DNA from: Fimbriimonadia bacterium | GTDB lineage: Bacteria; Armatimonadota; Fimbriimonadia; Fimbriimonadales; JABRVX01 | Reading direction: 5' to 3' | Assembly (NCBI GenBank): GCA_039961735.1 | Contig: JABRVX010000003.1 | Location: forward strand, 1-64,000 | DNA length: 64,000 nt | Part shown: in pieces, positions 3,919-56,699 of the stretch | Layout of the letters: every line of letters starts with the position of its first letter | Position numbering within the stretch: the stretch's first letter is position 1 | Translations under genes and position numbers: made by a program | Notes under the pieces: generated by a model | What the model was told of the DNA's origin: nothing | The model's database searches: none | What the model saw: only the letters and a program-made list of their open reading frames with translations

Positions 3919-4506
3919 CTTTTCACCCCGGAAAGGGCCGCCGGGCACACTTGCCCGCGGATGCGGCCGTATGGGGGTGCTGTTCCGCCTCCTTGCAGCC
4001 GCCCTAACCGGTGGAGGTGCCGGAACAGGCAGGCATTCGTCGGTGGGCGTCTGTGAAAACTAGTAGTGCTACCGGGTAGCCCTGAAGAGCCGTTCGGCAT
4101 GGCGGGCGGGGTGAGGCGAGCCGGTCGGGCGGGGCCGGTCCGGCGGTTGGAGCCTGGTCTGCAGGTCTCCCACCTCAACACTCTCCCTTCCGCTTCGCTT
4201 CGATGGGAGGAGGGTGAGGCAGCGCACGAGGGTGCCGACGAAGCCCGGGGGGTAGGCAAGGAGTCTGCTGTGCGGGACCGAGAGGCCAAGATGGTGGAAA
4301 GGGTTGTGGAGTGGGTCAAGAAAAGGTGGGGCTTACCCAGCGTGCGGCCAGCACGCTGGGCTGCCAAAGCAAGTGGCTGCGCGGTCCTTTCCTTTACCAA
4401 AAAACTCAAGATGGTCTAGCCTGCTTCCTACGGGCGTCTAGGCCACACTACAACAATGCCGCTGGGCGGTCCGGCCCCGCAGTTCATTAATAATTCTACC
4501 TGGTTT

Positions 4507-4554
4507 CTTGCCGGTAGGTGAAGTAGCGATCCTGCAAACCGGCAAGTTTGCAGG
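4507..4554. other. Mutually exclusive hairpins
   Basis: CTTGCCGGT (4507-4515) pairs perfectly with ACCGGCAAG (4538-4546). CCTGCAAAC (4531-4539) pairs perfectly with GTTTGCAGG (4546-4554). The two 9-bp stems share bases, so only one can form at a time. Which strand is transcribed is unknown. Confidence 0.4.
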
Positions 4555-4610
4555 GTGACCGTCAGATTAGTGGTACTTATTGTTACAATTACAAAATATC
4601 ACAAACAGAA

Positions 4611-4640
4611 CTGCCCACCGAGCAGAAGCCCGGTGGGCAG
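4611..4640 (-). terminator. Hairpin terminator of the Ig-like gene at 4665-6776
   Basis: Perfect 10-bp inverted repeat CTGCCCACCG (4611-4620) and CGGTGGGCAG (4631-4640), 25 nt beyond the minus-strand stop codon. On the minus strand it is followed by TTCTGTTTGTGATATTTTG, which is T-rich but interrupted. Confidence 0.6.
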
Positions 4641-4664
4641 CGTGCTTCGTCTAGTCCGACTAGA

Positions 4665-6776
4665 CTACGGGTGCCACAGCAGCGAGTTGGCCTGCTCGAT
4701 GAGCAGACAGCCGATCGGCTCCTCGTCACTGTCAATCAGGTAATGGTGCAACCACCGAACGTCACGCTTGCCGTCCGCCCCGATGAAGGTCCGGAAGTCA
4801 ACCGCGTACATCCCGATGACCTGCTCGAAGGCAATCAGAGCGTCCAGGTCGTTCGGAATGTCCAGGGCATCGTTGAGTGCCTGGGCCACGTGCGGCGGGA
4901 TCTTCGGCTTCTGGGTGCGACCCGCAGCCACCGTCGAGAAGTACTCGATGTTGGCGCGAATGACGTCCTTATCGGGCATCTCCACGCACCAGCAGAGGAC
5001 CTTGGTGATCGGCGGGCCGGTTCGGCCAGTGTTCGGGTCGCGGATGACGTAGGTCACCGACAGCTCGTAGCACGTTCCCGGAGGCGAGAACAGCAGCGAG
5101 CGGTTGCCCAAGTACTTGCGGTACGCGGTGTACACGACCGAGTCGTCAATGTTCGCGCTCGTCGCAAAGGCCAGCGTGTACCAGTTGGTGTTTAGGTCCG
5201 AACCCGGGCCGAACACGAAGGCACCGCACTTGTAGAGCGGAGTCACCTTGCGCACGTCTACCGCCTGAATGATCAGGTTCTCATCGAACGTCACCCCGTG
5301 GCAGTTGAGAATGTCACGGATCGTGAAGCCGTCGAGGTTGATGACCTCGGGTCGGAACGTCCGCTTGGTCTCGTTGTCGAACGGGTCGGTCGTCGTCAGG
5401 TTGCCGCGCCAGATCAGGTTCGGCAGAATGACGCATTCGCAATCGCCGGGCGGCTCCTCTTCCTGCTGCAGGCGGAACCGGGTCTGGGTCTGATTGCCAC
5501 AGGTGTCGGTGGCCGTGATCAGGAAGTCGTGGCAAGCGAAGTCGCCAGGCGTCCACTGAACGGAGCCGCTGGTGCCCGAGCCGTTGGTCGGGTTGAGGCC
5601 CGTGGTCCCGCCGTCCACGGTGATGGTCCAGTTGCTCGCCTCACTAATCGTGAACGAGATGGCAACCGTCGGCCCCTTCACCAGCTTGCACTGGCCCGGG
5701 TCGGTGATTACCGGAGTGACCACCGTGATCACCGGGTCCGTATTGTCGGTGGAGAAGGCCGACTGGCTGAAGCCGACGTTGCCGCACTCGTCACGAACTT
5801 CCACGCGCAGCGTGTGGTTGCCATCCGCCAGCGTGGTGGTGTCGAAAGCGAGTGTGGTCTCGGTGGGCAGCAGGGTCGCTTTCAGCACGCCGTCCACGTA
5901 CACCTTCGTGTCCACCAGTGCGGTGGTTGGCGGGCTATTGTTCACGCTCCAGTTGAAGTTGACCGTGCCCCGCAGGCAGCTACCAGGGCTCTGAACGTTG
6001 ACGACCGGCGCGGTCGAGTCCACGGTGAATTCGAGCGTTCGGACGGTCACGTTCGGTCCACTCTTGCAAACGTCGGGCGGCAAAAAGCCGGCGGCATCTG
6101 CAACCTCGAACTGAATGGTATAGATACCGTCCGCGAGCAAGGCCATGTCAATCGTGCGGTTCACGTTCAGCGGGCTCGAAGCTGCGCCATGGGACTCGTT
6201 GGCGATACCGTTGCCGGTCAGGCTCCAGGAGCTGAAGCCGCTGGCATCCGTCGCGTTCGCGGTGAACTGAACGTTGGTGTCGCCGTTGTTGTAGCAACCC
6301 TTGTCCGGGTTCAGCGAAATTGACGCAACTGGCGCGGTCTTGTCCAGAACGATCTGGATCACATCGCTGAAGATCGTGGCGTTCGTCTGCATGTCGTAAA
6401 TACGCGCAGTGCAGGTGTAAGTGCCGTCCGGAAACGGCCCGCCCACCGCGAAGTCCGCGCACGGAGGCCACAGGCCCGGAATACCACCATCCGGGAACGT
6501 GGGTCCGCTAATGAACTTGGTCTCGCCCGTTCCGTTGCGCACGCACCGGAGGTCCAGCGCGAGACCCGGCGATATGGCAGTGTGGCTGATGGAGAACTGT
6601 ACCGAACTCGTCACCTTCTGGCCATCCGCAGGCGAATCGATGTTCAGCTCGTTAAGGTCTCCAAGCTTGCCGACCTGTCCTAGATTGCCAGGCTCTCCAG
6701 GGCGAATGACCTGAGAGTGCACCGCAATCGCGGACAGAAGCAGCAAGCTGCAACACAGGAGTCGTATTGGCTGCAT
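4665..6776 (-). CDS. Secreted multi-Ig-domain protein
   Basis: The protein has 703 residues. ATG 6776 is preceded by AGGAAGAGGG. Residues 1-21 are a signal peptide (LLCCSLLLLSAIAVHSQ). From about residue 45 to 445 there are four or so Ig-like/bacterial adhesin-type units, each with a DKTAPV- or DSTAPV-like start, an NPD..CYNNGDT- or CGNQT-type loop and a paired Cys. A roughly 250-residue C-terminal region of unknown family follows, beginning after the acidic linker QQEEEPPGDCEC. It resembles the truncated protein at the left edge of the window, with which it alternates along the DNA with two beta-helix/dockerin genes. No catalytic motif is seen; an extracellular structural or adhesive role is inferred. 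Confidence 0.75.
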   Translation of the reverse strand: MQPIRLLCCSLLLLSAIAVHSQVIRPGEPGNLGQVGKLGDLNELNIDSPADGQKVTSSVQFSISHTAISPGLALDLRCVRNGTGETKFISGPTFPDGGIPGLWPPCADFAVGGPFPDGTYTCTARIYDMQTNATIFSDVIQIVLDKTAPVASISLNPDKGCYNNGDTNVQFTANATDASGFSSWSLTGNGIANESHGAASSPLNVNRTIDMALLADGIYTIQFEVADAAGFLPPDVCKSGPNVTVRTLEFTVDSTAPVVNVQSPGSCLRGTVNFNWSVNNSPPTTALVDTKVYVDGVLKATLLPTETTLAFDTTTLADGNHTLRVEVRDECGNVGFSQSAFSTDNTDPVITVVTPVITDPGQCKLVKGPTVAISFTISEASNWTITVDGGTTGLNPTNGSGTSGSVQWTPGDFACHDFLITATDTCGNQTQTRFRLQQEEEPPGDCECVILPNLIWRGNLTTTDPFDNETKRTFRPEVINLDGFTIRDILNCHGVTFDENLIIQAVDVRKVTPLYKCGAFVFGPGSDLNTNWYTLAFATSANIDDSVVYTAYRKYLGNRSLLFSPPGTCYELSVTYVIRDPNTGRTGPPITKVLCWCVEMPDKDVIRANIEYFSTVAAGRTQKPKIPPHVAQALNDALDIPNDLDALIAFEQVIGMYAVDFRTFIGADGKRDVRWLHHYLIDSDEEPIGCLLIEQANSLLWHP

Positions 6777-9196: not shown

Positions 9197-9589
9197 ATGT
9201 CACGTTCTTCACTCTCTCTTGCCGTCGCAGTGATTTTGAGCGTCACCGTGTTGGGTGTGTTTTCCACTCATCAGTGGCATGGCCCCGTCGGCACGCTGCA
9301 GCGCTACTTGCTTGCGGCGATGGAAGGCGACGGAGCAACGATGGAAAGGCTCGAGTACCCGCCGACTTCGCTCTTCCGCACCCGCTTGATGCACGGCTAC
9401 CGGGGAGCCCGCAATGTGAACATCCGAGCCGAAAGACAGGTAGGCGAGTACAGAGTGTGGATCAACACGGAGATCTATAATCCGCGCTATCGGCAGATAA
9501 TCGTTATGTCTTGGGTGATGATCAGAACGCCGGAAGGCTGGAAGGTGGATATCCCGAAAACGATCCAGGTGAACCCATGGGCGCGGTGA
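9197..9589 (+). CDS. Membrane-anchored NTF2-like hypothetical protein
   Basis: The protein has 130 residues. One N-terminal hydrophobic segment (SLAVAVILSVTVLGVFS) is followed by a small alpha+beta domain with GPVGTLQRYLLAAMEGD and a terminal WKVDIPKTI. This pattern recalls Lumazine-binding/NTF2-like domains in which a helix bearing an acidic residue precedes a cone-shaped sheet. It overlaps the next gene by 13 bp; that product has the same layout (SPVSAVNEFLTALRVRD, WKVDVTRLV), so the two are probably tandem paralogues. No ribosome site is strong at ATG 9197. The function is unknown; a periplasmic or outer-face location is inferred. Confidence 0.6.
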   Translation: MSRSSLSLAVAVILSVTVLGVFSTHQWHGPVGTLQRYLLAAMEGDGATMERLEYPPTSLFRTRLMHGYRGARNVNIRAERQVGEYRVWINTEIYNPRYRQIIVMSWVMIRTPEGWKVDIPKTIQVNPWAR

Positions 9590-10026
9590 TCCGAAGGCGA
9601 CTCAAGTGGACGACCGTGGTCGGATGGGTTGTCGCGCTGGCTATGATAGCCGCGATCGTACTGCTGATCTTCACTATCGGCAACTCACCGGTCTCGGCAG
9701 TCAACGAGTTCCTTACCGCCCTACGCGTGCGTGACGTGAATCGGCTCTCCGCGGTCACCTGGCTTCCAGAAGGCAGCCCGCCTGCGGAGGAGCAATGGCG
9801 CGAGATCTTTGCCGAGGTAAAGCCGTTGCCCATCTCGCACGTAGAGGAGCCGCTCATGGCTTCCATCACCGGAGACACTGCGCTGGTGAAGATGCTGGTG
9901 CGTATTCACGACCGCACGCCGCCGCAGGAGAGAGAAATCCAGTTCTTCGTGCGACGCGTGAACGGCAAGTGGAAGGTAGACGTGACGCGACTCGTCCGCG
10001 ACCCCTTCGAAAAACTGCCTCTCTAG
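9577..10026 (+). CDS. Membrane-anchored NTF2-like hypothetical protein
   Basis: The protein has 149 residues from ATG 9577, with AGGTGA 6 nt upstream; the same frame is open further upstream, but that part overlaps the preceding gene in shadow. A single transmembrane helix (VVGWVVALAMIAAIVLLIFTI) leads into a domain of about 115 residues. Its helix NEFLTALRVRDVNRL and final strand WKVDVTRL match the preceding protein. Translation is probably coupled to that gene. No catalytic residues can be assigned and I do not know the function. Confidence 0.6.
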   Translation: MGAVIRRRLKWTTVVGWVVALAMIAAIVLLIFTIGNSPVSAVNEFLTALRVRDVNRLSAVTWLPEGSPPAEEQWREIFAEVKPLPISHVEEPLMASITGDTALVKMLVRIHDRTPPQEREIQFFVRRVNGKWKVDVTRLVRDPFEKLPL

Positions 10027-10177
10027 CGGGTTCAGCCTCAGCCCCGTCCCGAGCTCGCGCAAATCCGGCAATGCCAGCCGGCGGATGCCCGAACTTTCCG
10101 ACCCCATCGAACCGAATATTTAATGGAGCGCAATGAAGCGCCCCGGAGCGGTTCCCCAAGGCGCGGGGATGCCGAAT

Positions 10178-10197
10178 CACGGAATCCGTGTTAGAAT
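10178..10197 (+). promoter_or_regulatory. Palindromic operator and -10 of the structured RNA
   Basis: CACGGA-A-TCCGTG (10178-10190) is a perfect 6-bp palindrome. It lies immediately before TAGAAT (10192-10197), a good -10 hexamer, where a repressor would block polymerase. No convincing -35 is seen. The predicted start is near 10204. Confidence 0.45.
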
Positions 10198-10203
10198 GAT
10201 ATG

Positions 10204-10439
10204 GAGGTGACGGAAGGATAGAAGAGACGCTGAACAACTTGGTCGCCGGCTTCGGCGAGAATGTCGAATAGCTCCGAGGAGCGACTTCGATAGGCCAACA
10301 AGTGGTGCAGGGGATCCCAACGACGGGGGAACCGTAGGTACTGCAAAGACAGTGGAGCTTCTATCGCTCCGTGGCGACCCGCCAAGCCGGCGACCAGACC
10401 ACAATCGCGGCTTGCATCCGACCCAGGTGGTCGGTTTTT
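10204..10439 (+). ncRNA. Structured non-coding RNA, 6S-like long hairpin
   Basis: No open frame fits this stretch, yet its two halves are strongly complementary. Bases 10240-10252 pair perfectly over 13 bp with 10384-10396. The pairing continues inward as 10254-10257 with 10380-10383, 10263-10266 with 10375-10378, 10278-10284 with 10364-10370, and 10306-10310 with 10341-10345, leaving an open internal bubble and an apical loop. A rho-independent terminator follows: CCGACC (10418-10423), loop CAGGT, GGTCGG (10429-10434), TTTTT. The next gene, hemW, is on the opposite strand, so this is a free RNA and not a leader. The shape and length resemble 6S RNA, but identity is inferred. No tmRNA tag, RNase P core or SRP GGAAGGAAGC motif is present. 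Confidence 0.65.
10418..10439 (+). terminator. Intrinsic terminator of the structured RNA
   Basis: A 6-bp GC-rich stem CCGACC/GGTCGG with a 5-nt loop is followed by TTTTT on the plus strand. It lies 16 bp before the converging stop codon of hemW. Confidence 0.75.
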
Positions 10440-10454
10440 CGCTTTCTGCACACC

Positions 10455-11582
10455 TCACGGCAGCAGACGCATGGTCACCGAGTCGTGAAACTTCAGTCCC
10501 TCGCGCGTGAGGCGCACACTGCACTCGTCGACCTCCACCCAGCCCTTTTCTTTCAGATCGTTAAGAGCTGAAGCGAGCCGCGCTCTCGAATCGGGGACAC
10601 GGCTTTCCAATCGCTCGAAGGGTACGCCCTCTATCACGCGAAGCCCGACCATCAGCGTCTCCGCGAGCCACAGGTCCTCGCCCACCTTCTCGCGCTCCTC
10701 GACGTGGTCCCGAGCCTGTAGAACTGCAGCCGCATAACGCGCAGGGCTCCGCAAGTTCTTGCGCCTTTCGCCATCGAGATACGAGACCGCTCCCGGGCCG
10801 AACCCTGCGTAGGGCTCGTTGCGCCAGTACGACAGGTTGTGCTCGCACTCCCGACCGGGCTTCGCGTAGTTGGAGATCTCGTATCTCCTTAGGCCAGCAG
10901 CCGCACATAGCCTCTCGGCTTCCTCTTGCATCGCAATCTGCACGTCCTCGTCGGGAAGGTCGAGTAGACCATGCCGGTCCAGTGCGGCGAAGCGGGTGCC
11001 AGGCTCAATGGTGAGGCAGTAAAGTGACAGGTGCTCGGGCTCGAACGCCAGTGCGGCCTTTACACTCTCGATCCAGCGGCCCAACGTCTGACCAGGCAGC
11101 GCATACATCAGATCGAGACTCAGATTGCCAAAGCCGGCACGGCGAGCAGCACACACGGCTCGCGATATCTCGCTCGACGAGTGCACCCGCCCCAAGGTAC
11201 GAAGCTCGTGATCGTGGAAGCTCTGCGCGCCGATGCTGATCCGGTTGAAACCCATCGCCCGAAGTGCCGTAAAGCGCTCGGCGTCAACTGTGCCCGGATT
11301 CGCTTCTGCCGTGATCTCTGCCTCGGTCGTGATGTCGAACGTGCTGGTCAATGCAGAAAACAGCCGCTCCAGCCGCTCCACCGAGAGAAACGTTGGCGTG
11401 CCCCCACCGAAGAAAACCGTCCCGACCCGCGCCCCTCTCATCTCCGAGCGGCGAATCTCCAGTTCGCAGGCGCGGGTGAATGTCTCGTGTTCCTCCTCCG
11501 GCCGAGCGTACGAGTTGAAGTCGCAGTACGGACACTTCGACGGACAGAAAGGCGTGTGAACGTAAACGGCCAGTTCCCCCAC
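10455..11582 (-). CDS. hemW: Radical SAM haem chaperone HemW
   Basis: The protein has 375 residues from GTG 11582 (MGELAVYVHTPFC); the frame is open further upstream, but that part is not HemW-like and would overlap the divergent amidohydrolase. The radical SAM cluster motif is CPSKCPYC near residues 12-19. GGGTPTFLS and NPGTVD follow, and the C-terminal HemN-type domain ends the protein. The motif CxxxCxxC followed by D-F rather than the CxxxCxxCxC of true coproporphyrinogen dehydrogenase points to HemW, which transfers haem to respiratory enzymes. It is divergent from the M20 peptidase gene, with about 110 bp between. Confidence 0.9.
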   Translation of the reverse strand: MGELAVYVHTPFCPSKCPYCDFNSYARPEEEHETFTRACELEIRRSEMRGARVGTVFFGGGTPTFLSVERLERLFSALTSTFDITTEAEITAEANPGTVDAERFTALRAMGFNRISIGAQSFHDHELRTLGRVHSSSEISRAVCAARRAGFGNLSLDLMYALPGQTLGRWIESVKAALAFEPEHLSLYCLTIEPGTRFAALDRHGLLDLPDEDVQIAMQEEAERLCAAAGLRRYEISNYAKPGRECEHNLSYWRNEPYAGFGPGAVSYLDGERRKNLRSPARYAAAVLQARDHVEEREKVGEDLWLAETLMVGLRVIEGVPFERLESRVPDSRARLASALNDLKEKGWVEVDECSVRLTREGLKFHDSVTMRLLP

Positions 11583-22520: not shown

Positions 22521-23621
22521 CTACTGCGTCTCACGAGGGGCTATCGTGCCTCCCGCGACTACCGTCTCACCGCGGTAGAACACCGCCGCTTGACCTGGCG
22601 TAACCGCCGACACTGGCTCCACGAAGCGAGCGGTGAGACGACCACTCTCCTCCGGAGGCAACAACACTGCCTCCCGAGCCGCCATATTATACCGTATCTT
22701 TGCGGATACCCTTAATGGCTCGGCGATCCCCTCGATGGCACCCCACACAACGTCTTCCACCGTTACCTCGTGCGAGAACGTGTCCCGCTTGTCGCCAACG
22801 ACCAGCGCATTGCTCGCGGGGTCCAACGCTAGTACGAACAAGGGCTTGCCGCCCGTTGCGATGCCGATGCCCTTGCGCTGCCCGACGGTGTATTGCGCCA
22901 GCCCGTCGTGCGTGCCGATGCGATTGCCCTCGCGGTCGAGTATGGGACCATCACGGAACGCCTGGGGAACTCGCGCGCGCAGGAACTCGCGATAGCCTCC
23001 GGCCTCGCTCACGAAGCAGATGTCTTGCGATTCCTGCTTGTCGGCGACCGCCAGCCCAGCCGAGCGCGCAAGTGCCCTCGTTGCCGTCTTGTCGCGCACC
23101 GTGCCCAGGGGGAAGCGCAGTCGGGCGAGCTGCTCTTGGGAGGCCGCGTACAGCGCATACGACTGATCCTTCTCCTTGCAAAGAGCACGCATCAGTGCGA
23201 ACCGCCCGCTCGGTTGCCGGCGCACGCGGGCATAGTGTCCGGTAGCGAGGGAATCGCACCCCAACTCTCGGGCCTTGTCCAACAACAGGTCGAACTTCAC
23301 GTACCGGTTGCAGGCAATGCATGGGTTGGGTGTGCGACCGTGCGTGTACTCTTCGATGAACCGCTGGATCACGCTCTCCCGAAACGAGTCGCGAAAGTTC
23401 AGCACATAGTAGGGAATACCGAGGGTGTGTGCGACCCGCCGCGCATCCTCCACCGCCCCGAGAGAGCAGCATCCGGCATGACGGGAGTCGGTCTGGCTCT
23501 CCTGCCAGATCTGCATGGTGAGGCCGATGACCCGGTGACCGTGCTGGACGAGCAAAGCGGCAACTGCAGAGCTATCTACCCCCCCACTCATGGCCACGGC
23601 AATCTTCAGCTTCCTGGCCAT
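22521..23621 (-). CDS. mnmA: tRNA-specific 2-thiouridylase MnmA
   Basis: The protein has 366 residues. PP-loop AMSGGVDSSAVAALL occupies residues 9-23, the first catalytic Cys is in NPCIACNRYVKF, the second in SQDICFV, and GHYAR and QRKGIGIATG are the tRNA-binding signatures. It thiolates U34 of Lys, Glu and Gln tRNAs using persulfide sulfur and ATP. It sits 22 bp after metY, with the VKOR-DsbA gene upstream, forming a minus-strand run of sulfur/thiol genes. Confidence 0.95.
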   Translation of the reverse strand: MARKLKIAVAMSGGVDSSAVAALLVQHGHRVIGLTMQIWQESQTDSRHAGCCSLGAVEDARRVAHTLGIPYYVLNFRDSFRESVIQRFIEEYTHGRTPNPCIACNRYVKFDLLLDKARELGCDSLATGHYARVRRQPSGRFALMRALCKEKDQSYALYAASQEQLARLRFPLGTVRDKTATRALARSAGLAVADKQESQDICFVSEAGGYREFLRARVPQAFRDGPILDREGNRIGTHDGLAQYTVGQRKGIGIATGGKPLFVLALDPASNALVVGDKRDTFSHEVTVEDVVWGAIEGIAEPLRVSAKIRYNMAAREAVLLPPEESGRLTARFVEPVSAVTPGQAAVFYRGETVVAGGTIAPRETQ

Positions 23622-50588: not shown

Positions 50589-50661
50589 GTACTGCTCTGT
50601 ACCGAGCACTGTCATGCTGTTCGTGCTCGTCCCGCCCTAACACCGTGTCATCTGTTGTGGC

Positions 50662-50813
50662 GTCATGCTGAGCCCGTCGAAGCACCCGTCATGCTGAGCC
50701 CGTCGAAGCACCCGTCATGCTGAGCCCGTCGAAGCATGCGCTCGTGGTCCGCATGGTGGTATCTCCACTCTGGATAGTCGGGCATCGTCATGCTTCGACA
50801 GGCTCAGCATGAC
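50662..50813. repeat. REP-like palindromic elements, three direct copies and one inverted
   Basis: Copies begin at 50662, 50688 and 50714 with an exact 26-bp period (GTCATGCTGAGCCCGTCGAA...). An inverted copy lies at 50787-50813. Each full copy has 8-bp arms GTCATGCT/AGCATGAC around an 11-nt centre. The same element appears at 40878-40902 and 56637-56663. Confidence 0.85.
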
Positions 50814-51036
50814 GATAACCCGCGCTCGCAGCCCAAGCTCGGCATCAGGGTAACACTCGTTCGCTCGCGTATGAGGCACAGGTGAGAGGCGCAATCTCCA
50901 TCGCCGCTATCACGAGGGAATGGCGAGACGACCTGGCCACTCTCATCCAAGCCCCACCACGACCGAAGGCCCCATCTATGACAGACCCTCACATCCCACC
51001 TGGATCGGTCCGCAGTGAACGGCCTCGCAGGCTCGA
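50814..51036. other. Intergenic stretch without recognised gene
   Basis: A plus-strand frame opens at 50882, but its product (MRGAISIAAITREWRDDL, then Pro/Arg/Ser-rich) shows no domain and runs into the pseudogene fragment. I see no promoter or RNA here. Confidence 0.35.
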
Positions 51037-51236: not shown

Positions 51237-51272
51237 ATCTACCGAGGGCCGCTTTCAGGGCCCTCGGTAGAT
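51237..51272 (-). terminator. 14-bp perfect hairpin after the multicopper oxidase gene
   Basis: ATCTACCGAGGGCC (51237-51250) pairs with 51259-51272 over 14 bp, 18 nt beyond the stop at 51291. No T-run follows on the minus strand. Confidence 0.5.
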
Positions 51273-56524: not shown

Positions 56525-56636
56525 CGGGACCCGGGTTACTGGGCGGCTATCATGACCTTGCTCGTTTGGTCTCGCCATTCGGCGTCTGTCTCGATATGAG
56601 CACTGCACTTCGTCTCGGGGCTAAGTGACAAGACCC

Positions 56637-56663
56637 GTCATGCTGAGCCTGTCGAAGCATGAC
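56637..56663. repeat. REP-like palindromic element
   Basis: Complete copy with arms GTCATGCT and AGCATGAC and centre GAGCCTGTCGA. It lies in the 175-bp gap between the converging ARC and hydrogenase-protease genes. Confidence 0.85.
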
Positions 56664-56699
56664 GGGGTTGGGGTGGCGTGGTATGCTGTTACCTCAGCA

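Follow-up and report, generated by a model that had tools for sequence, protein, structure and literature searches.

The intergenic spacer and its predicted transcript

The window, the whole stretch of DNA analysed here, is 64,000 nucleotides long and comprises bases 1–64000 of contig C3 of a genome of 3.24 Mb in 77 contigs. Within it, the interval 10204–10439 sits in a 430-nt spacer between a two-gene unit on the plus strand (9197–10026) and hemW on the minus strand, which ends at 10455 and was assigned from its Radical_SAM and HemN_C domains. hemW lies 16 nt beyond a plus-strand terminator and on the opposite strand, and we found no plus-strand gene close downstream of the interval. This agrees with an earlier note on this DNA, which had argued from the orientation of hemW that there is no gene to be regulated in cis. 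The genome contains one copy of the interval. The neighbouring open reading frames (ORFs) that were scanned include no nuclease, reverse transcriptase or transposase, making it unlikely that the locus encodes a guide RNA or a retron RNA.

Sequence signals at both ends of the interval delimit a predicted plus-strand transcript (Table 1). Stem P1, which is described below, begins 9 nt after the end of the extended -10 promoter-like box, TGTTAGAAT; matches to TGNTAKAAT number three in the window versus 0.61 expected. In the same genome, the genes for 6S RNA, RNase P RNA and tmRNA have -10 boxes (TACACT, TACAAT and TATAAT, respectively) that lie at a similar distance, 14–17 nt upstream of the matched 5′ ends, compared with 12 nt for 10204–10439. 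No convincing -35 box was found upstream of TGTTAGAAT, and a promoter scan yielded no full match there, which counts against an RNA with a promoter of its own. At the 3′ end, the proposal in the earlier note that the RNA is closed by a proper terminator was confirmed.

Neither a codon-usage signal, in any frame, nor a Pfam match was detected in 10204–10439; a conserved protein in this interval, which the earlier note would have taken as evidence against an RNA, was thus not found. We considered an 86-aa minus-strand ORF as such a protein and rejected it. Its match in one other genome (G038, E = 6e-5) lies antisense inside a real gene; at the DNA level the two are only 48% identical, and shuffled sequences reach local scores as good. 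We judged the match to be due to chance.

Table 1 Predicted features of the interval and its flanks (window coordinates)
Feature	Position	Strand	Basis or remark
Extended -10 promoter-like box, TGTTAGAAT	10189..10197	+	Sequence; no good -35
Predicted transcript, ~236 nt	10204..10439	+	Ends inferred from the -10 box (5′) and the terminator (3′)
P1 5′ arm (20 bp with symmetric 1x1, 2x2 and 3x3 internal loops)	10207..10232	+	Pairing probability ~0.97; z boundary scan
Helix B 5′ arm (13-bp perfect)	10240..10252	+	Inverted repeat; overlaps P2
Hairpin P2, TCGCCG/CGGCGA	10243..10258	+	Inside P1; overlaps helix B 5′ arm
Hairpin P3 in the P1 junction	10262..10292	+	z -3.47 on +, -1.83 on -
Hairpin P4 in the P1 junction	10302..10344	+	z -2.39 on +, -0.71 on -
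P1 3′ arm	10350..10375	+	Pairing probability; z boundary scan
Helix B 3′ arm	10384..10396	+	Competes with a local 3′ hairpin (~10381–10415)
Intrinsic terminator, CCGACC-CAGGT-GGTCGG then TTTTT	10418..10439	+	Stem 10418–10434

Stem P1 and the 13-bp helix

The interval 10204–10439 has a predicted minimum free energy (MFE) of -95.3 kcal/mol (z = -3.22). In the dominant predicted fold, stem P1, with a duplex strength of -32.0 kcal/mol, closes a junction of three hairpins, P2, P3 and P4. The earlier note had instead read the interval as one long interrupted hairpin built from a 13-bp long-range helix, here called helix B, together with several inner helices. The perfect repeat behind helix B is indeed present, and its duplex strength of -28.1 kcal/mol is similar to that of P1, but the helix is absent from the MFE fold, which is built on P1, and a pseudoknot-free model gives it an ensemble probability of only about 0.03. 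When B was forced, the nested fold reached -92.4 kcal/mol, about 3 kcal/mol worse than the MFE.

One arm of helix B lies inside P1 and the other outside, so the two helices cross and could form together only as a pseudoknot; otherwise they would have to alternate. A naive sum of P1 and B comes to -105.8 kcal/mol before any loop penalty, a figure from programs that do not model pseudoknots; with it, a P1 + B pseudoknot would be possible. The predicted main stem, P1, was overlooked by the earlier note and crosses the 13-bp helix, illustrating that an obvious perfect inverted repeat need not be the main stem of an RNA and that a better-supported stem may, as here, run across it.

The local TCGCCG/CGGCGA hairpin that had been noted as a competitor of the long helix is present and corresponds to P2. 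The refolding that it was thought to permit is supported in principle, because both arms of helix B have competing partners. In addition, GGCGACC occurs twice in the 3′ part of the RNA, at 10373–10379 and 10390–10396, and each copy can pair with GGTCGCC at 10241–10247, which gives the arm shared by P2 and B several competing partners.

We compared the stability of these structures with that of shuffled sequences. On the plus strand, the P1 domain (10204–10378) had a z score of -4.99, with none of 150 shuffles equally stable, versus -2.11 on the minus strand, and P3 and P4 showed a strand bias in the same direction, with the plus strand more stable. The signal was maximal for a start at 10207 and an end at 10378 and fell to about -2 once the 5′ arm of P1 was removed, where the boundary values carry a scatter of about one unit due to the limited number of shuffles. 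Among 600 shuffles, one produced a helix that equalled B, and none produced two crossing helices that together equalled B and P1. On the same measure, the known RNAs of this genome had z scores of -5.1 (6S), -3.8 (RNase P), -1.2 (tmRNA) and -1.1 (SRP). Among 1278 strand-specific segments of 175 nt, the P1 region ranked 9th; the eight that scored equal or better were mostly repeats or inverted repeats, most of them at 50.7 and 51.1–51.2 kb, and the window contains six pairs of inverted repeats of at least 13 bp with a gap of up to 200. The stability signal is strong, but other sites in the window equal it, and the choice of this site was made after the fact.

Known RNA families and the search for relatives

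At gathering thresholds, Rfam returned no match in the window, and a cmscan of 10040–10500 with permissive filters and E values up to 10 returned nothing credible. The check suggested in the earlier note, a search with the Rfam models of 6S, SRP, tmRNA and RNase P, gave no match at 10204–10439 with E values up to 10, and ARAGORN found no tmRNA there. All four identities were rejected for this interval, as each of these RNAs has a gene scoring above the cut-off elsewhere in the genome: RNase P RNA (RF00010) at C67:17221-17563 with 304 bits, tmRNA (RF00023) at C4:54874-55227(-) with 163 bits, SRP RNA (RF00169) at C22:20683-20782 with 69 bits, and a genuine 6S RNA outside the window, at G000:C3:103638-103811 (-), with 48.2 bits relative to the Rfam cut-off of 46.4 bits for RF00013. 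Because the true 6S gene is located there, we dropped 10204–10439 as the 6S RNA of this organism.

6S RNA associates with the holoenzyme of the housekeeping RNA polymerase and is the template for pRNA synthesis. The earlier note had described the interval as having a 6S-like architecture. This architecture was not supported: beyond the missing RF00013 match and the real 6S gene elsewhere, no rod with a large central bubble is predicted, and the largest internal loop of P1 is 3x3. A central bubble is a feature of 6S RNA (PMC4064990). The candidate resembles 6S RNA (SsrS, RF00013) in being free-standing, in its size class of roughly 180–240 nt and in its strong, strand-specific folding, whereas it differs in lacking a covariance-model match and in having a multi-hairpin junction in place of the central bubble between closing and terminal stems.

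DNA searches detected no homologue in 61 genomes of the same order, which share the order of the source but not its family, or in 113 genomes of the class and 291 of the phylum. Searches of phage and plasmid DNA likewise gave no homologue of 10204–10439, and one exact 18-nt match to the RNA in a viral contig is expected by chance. A DNA match in genome G085 (E = 7e-4) covers only about 39 bp, and its antisense reading resembles, by eye, a common FAD-binding motif; we took it as chance. A covariance model of the P1 domain, which is weak because it was built from a single sequence, recovered only itself and chance-level matches in the 113 class genomes, and the same result was obtained with more sensitive filters in 39 genomes. 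One covariance match, in genome G034 (E = 0.006), spans 70 nt at the end of a contig and is at chance level over 113 genomes. Downstream of hemW in 30 same-order relatives, both the RNA and the genes next to it were missing. A HemW search of genome contigs yielded matches from distant phyla only, and nothing useful was found in the literature on RNAs of candidate host lineages. With no homologue found, a free-standing RNA gains no support from covariation, which counts against it. Other orphan candidates for structured RNAs have come out of comparative genomics (for example, PMC2864571 and PMC8040213) and rest on homologues and covariation; like them, 10204–10439 is intergenic, structured, non-coding and without an assigned function, but it rests on one genome and on thermodynamic folding.

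Readings of the locus and other folded sites in the window

We propose, with a probability of roughly one half (0.48), that 10204–10439 encodes a free-standing, structured small RNA of about 236 nt on the plus strand that has its own sigma-A-type promoter and terminator, acts in trans and is restricted to its lineage. That the locus might specify a free-standing structured RNA was the central claim of the earlier note, and it draws support from the z score of the P1 domain and its strand specificity, the coincidence of the boundaries with the stem, the promoter-like -10 box, the terminator, the crossing helices, the lack of coding signal and the single copy. A sigma-A-type promoter would start the RNA and the intrinsic terminator would end it. 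Its 5′ three quarters would fold into the P1-closed junction with three hairpins, and the 3′ tail could pair back into the junction hairpin P2 through helix B, forming a pseudoknot or a two-state switch. Since there is no sense gene downstream and no coding capacity, such an RNA would most likely work in trans, as a protein-binding or ligand-binding regulator. Provided that it is transcribed, the RNA would fold as strongly as 6S while lacking any relative in Rfam or among the genomes searched from the phylum, and it would define a new RNA family from a lineage that has been sampled only sparsely. More speculatively, and in our view doubtfully, it could be the first of a new family of pseudoknotted RNAs that act in trans, the 3′ tail of the P1-closed junction invading hairpin P2, or else an orphan aptamer that controls hemW antisense; it would be confined to a poorly sampled bacterial family.

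The alternative we take most seriously, while considering it unlikely, is that the two-gene unit upstream ends in this interval, which would serve as its structured 3′ UTR and terminator and possibly survive as a stable processed 3′ fragment. No terminator was found between the stop codon at 10026 and position 10418, so read-through transcripts would end at the 10418–10439 terminator. However, the 177 nt that separate the stop codon from P1 have no excess stability (plus-strand z of 0.44), and the extended -10 box stands directly before P1. It is also rather unlikely, in our estimate, that the signals reflect chance, namely a GC-rich spacer between convergent genes that has a strong terminator and in which inverted repeats occur by coincidence. 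The absence of homologues wherever they were searched for would fit this explanation, as would the several other sites in the window that fold equally well and the selection of this site by an earlier reader out of 64 kb; it fits poorly with the strand-specific z of about -5, with limits that fall at the promoter and the stem, and with two crossing helices that exceed 600 shuffles.

We regard as improbable an orphan riboswitch-like element in which the P1-closed junction serves as an aptamer governing how often transcription passes the terminator and, hence, how much RNA antisense to the hemW 3′ end is made. The layout is like that of a riboswitch aptamer with an intrinsic terminator: P1 closes a multi-helix junction, competing tail pairings and the terminator come next, and hemW lies 16 nt past the terminator on the other strand; nevertheless, riboswitches differ in having a downstream gene on the same strand, inspection of the folds revealed no clear antiterminator that would exclude the terminator, and there was no match to an Rfam riboswitch. 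Less probable still is a small MITE-like mobile element with helix B as 13-bp terminal inverted repeats: its perfect ends, 157 bp apart, would suit such an element, but it is present in single copy, no target-site duplication is visible in the sequence, phage and plasmid DNA gave no match, and the stronger structure, P1, reaches beyond the repeats. Least probable of all is a second, diverged 6S RNA, which the length, stand-alone position and z score would suit but which scores nothing against the 6S model at E values up to 10, lacks a central bubble in the predicted folds and would coexist with a bona fide 6S gene elsewhere.

Four other sites in the window were recorded for their folding. The region 50640–50840 contains three direct copies of CGTCATGCTGAGCCCGTCGAAGCA and an inverted copy (14-bp arms, CGTCATGCTGAGCC), folds very strongly on both strands and looks like a dispersed intergenic repeat; a related CCCGTCATGCT inverted repeat lies at 56634–56666. 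A perfect 14-bp inverted repeat, ATCTACCGAGGGCC, with an 8-nt loop and a strong fold on both strands, lies at 51237–51272. The intergenic stretch 4480–4690 folds strongly on the minus strand (z = -4.9), where two GC-rich hairpins are followed by T-rich sequence, and, lying between the genes at 3948 and 4668, may have a regulatory or terminator role. Finally, at 22563–22640, an 11-bp inverted repeat, CGTCTCACCGC, with a 56-nt gap folds strongly on the plus strand (z = -4.7) and lies inside the end of a minus-strand ORF (22521–23621) whose product is, judged by its sequence, putatively MnmA-like.
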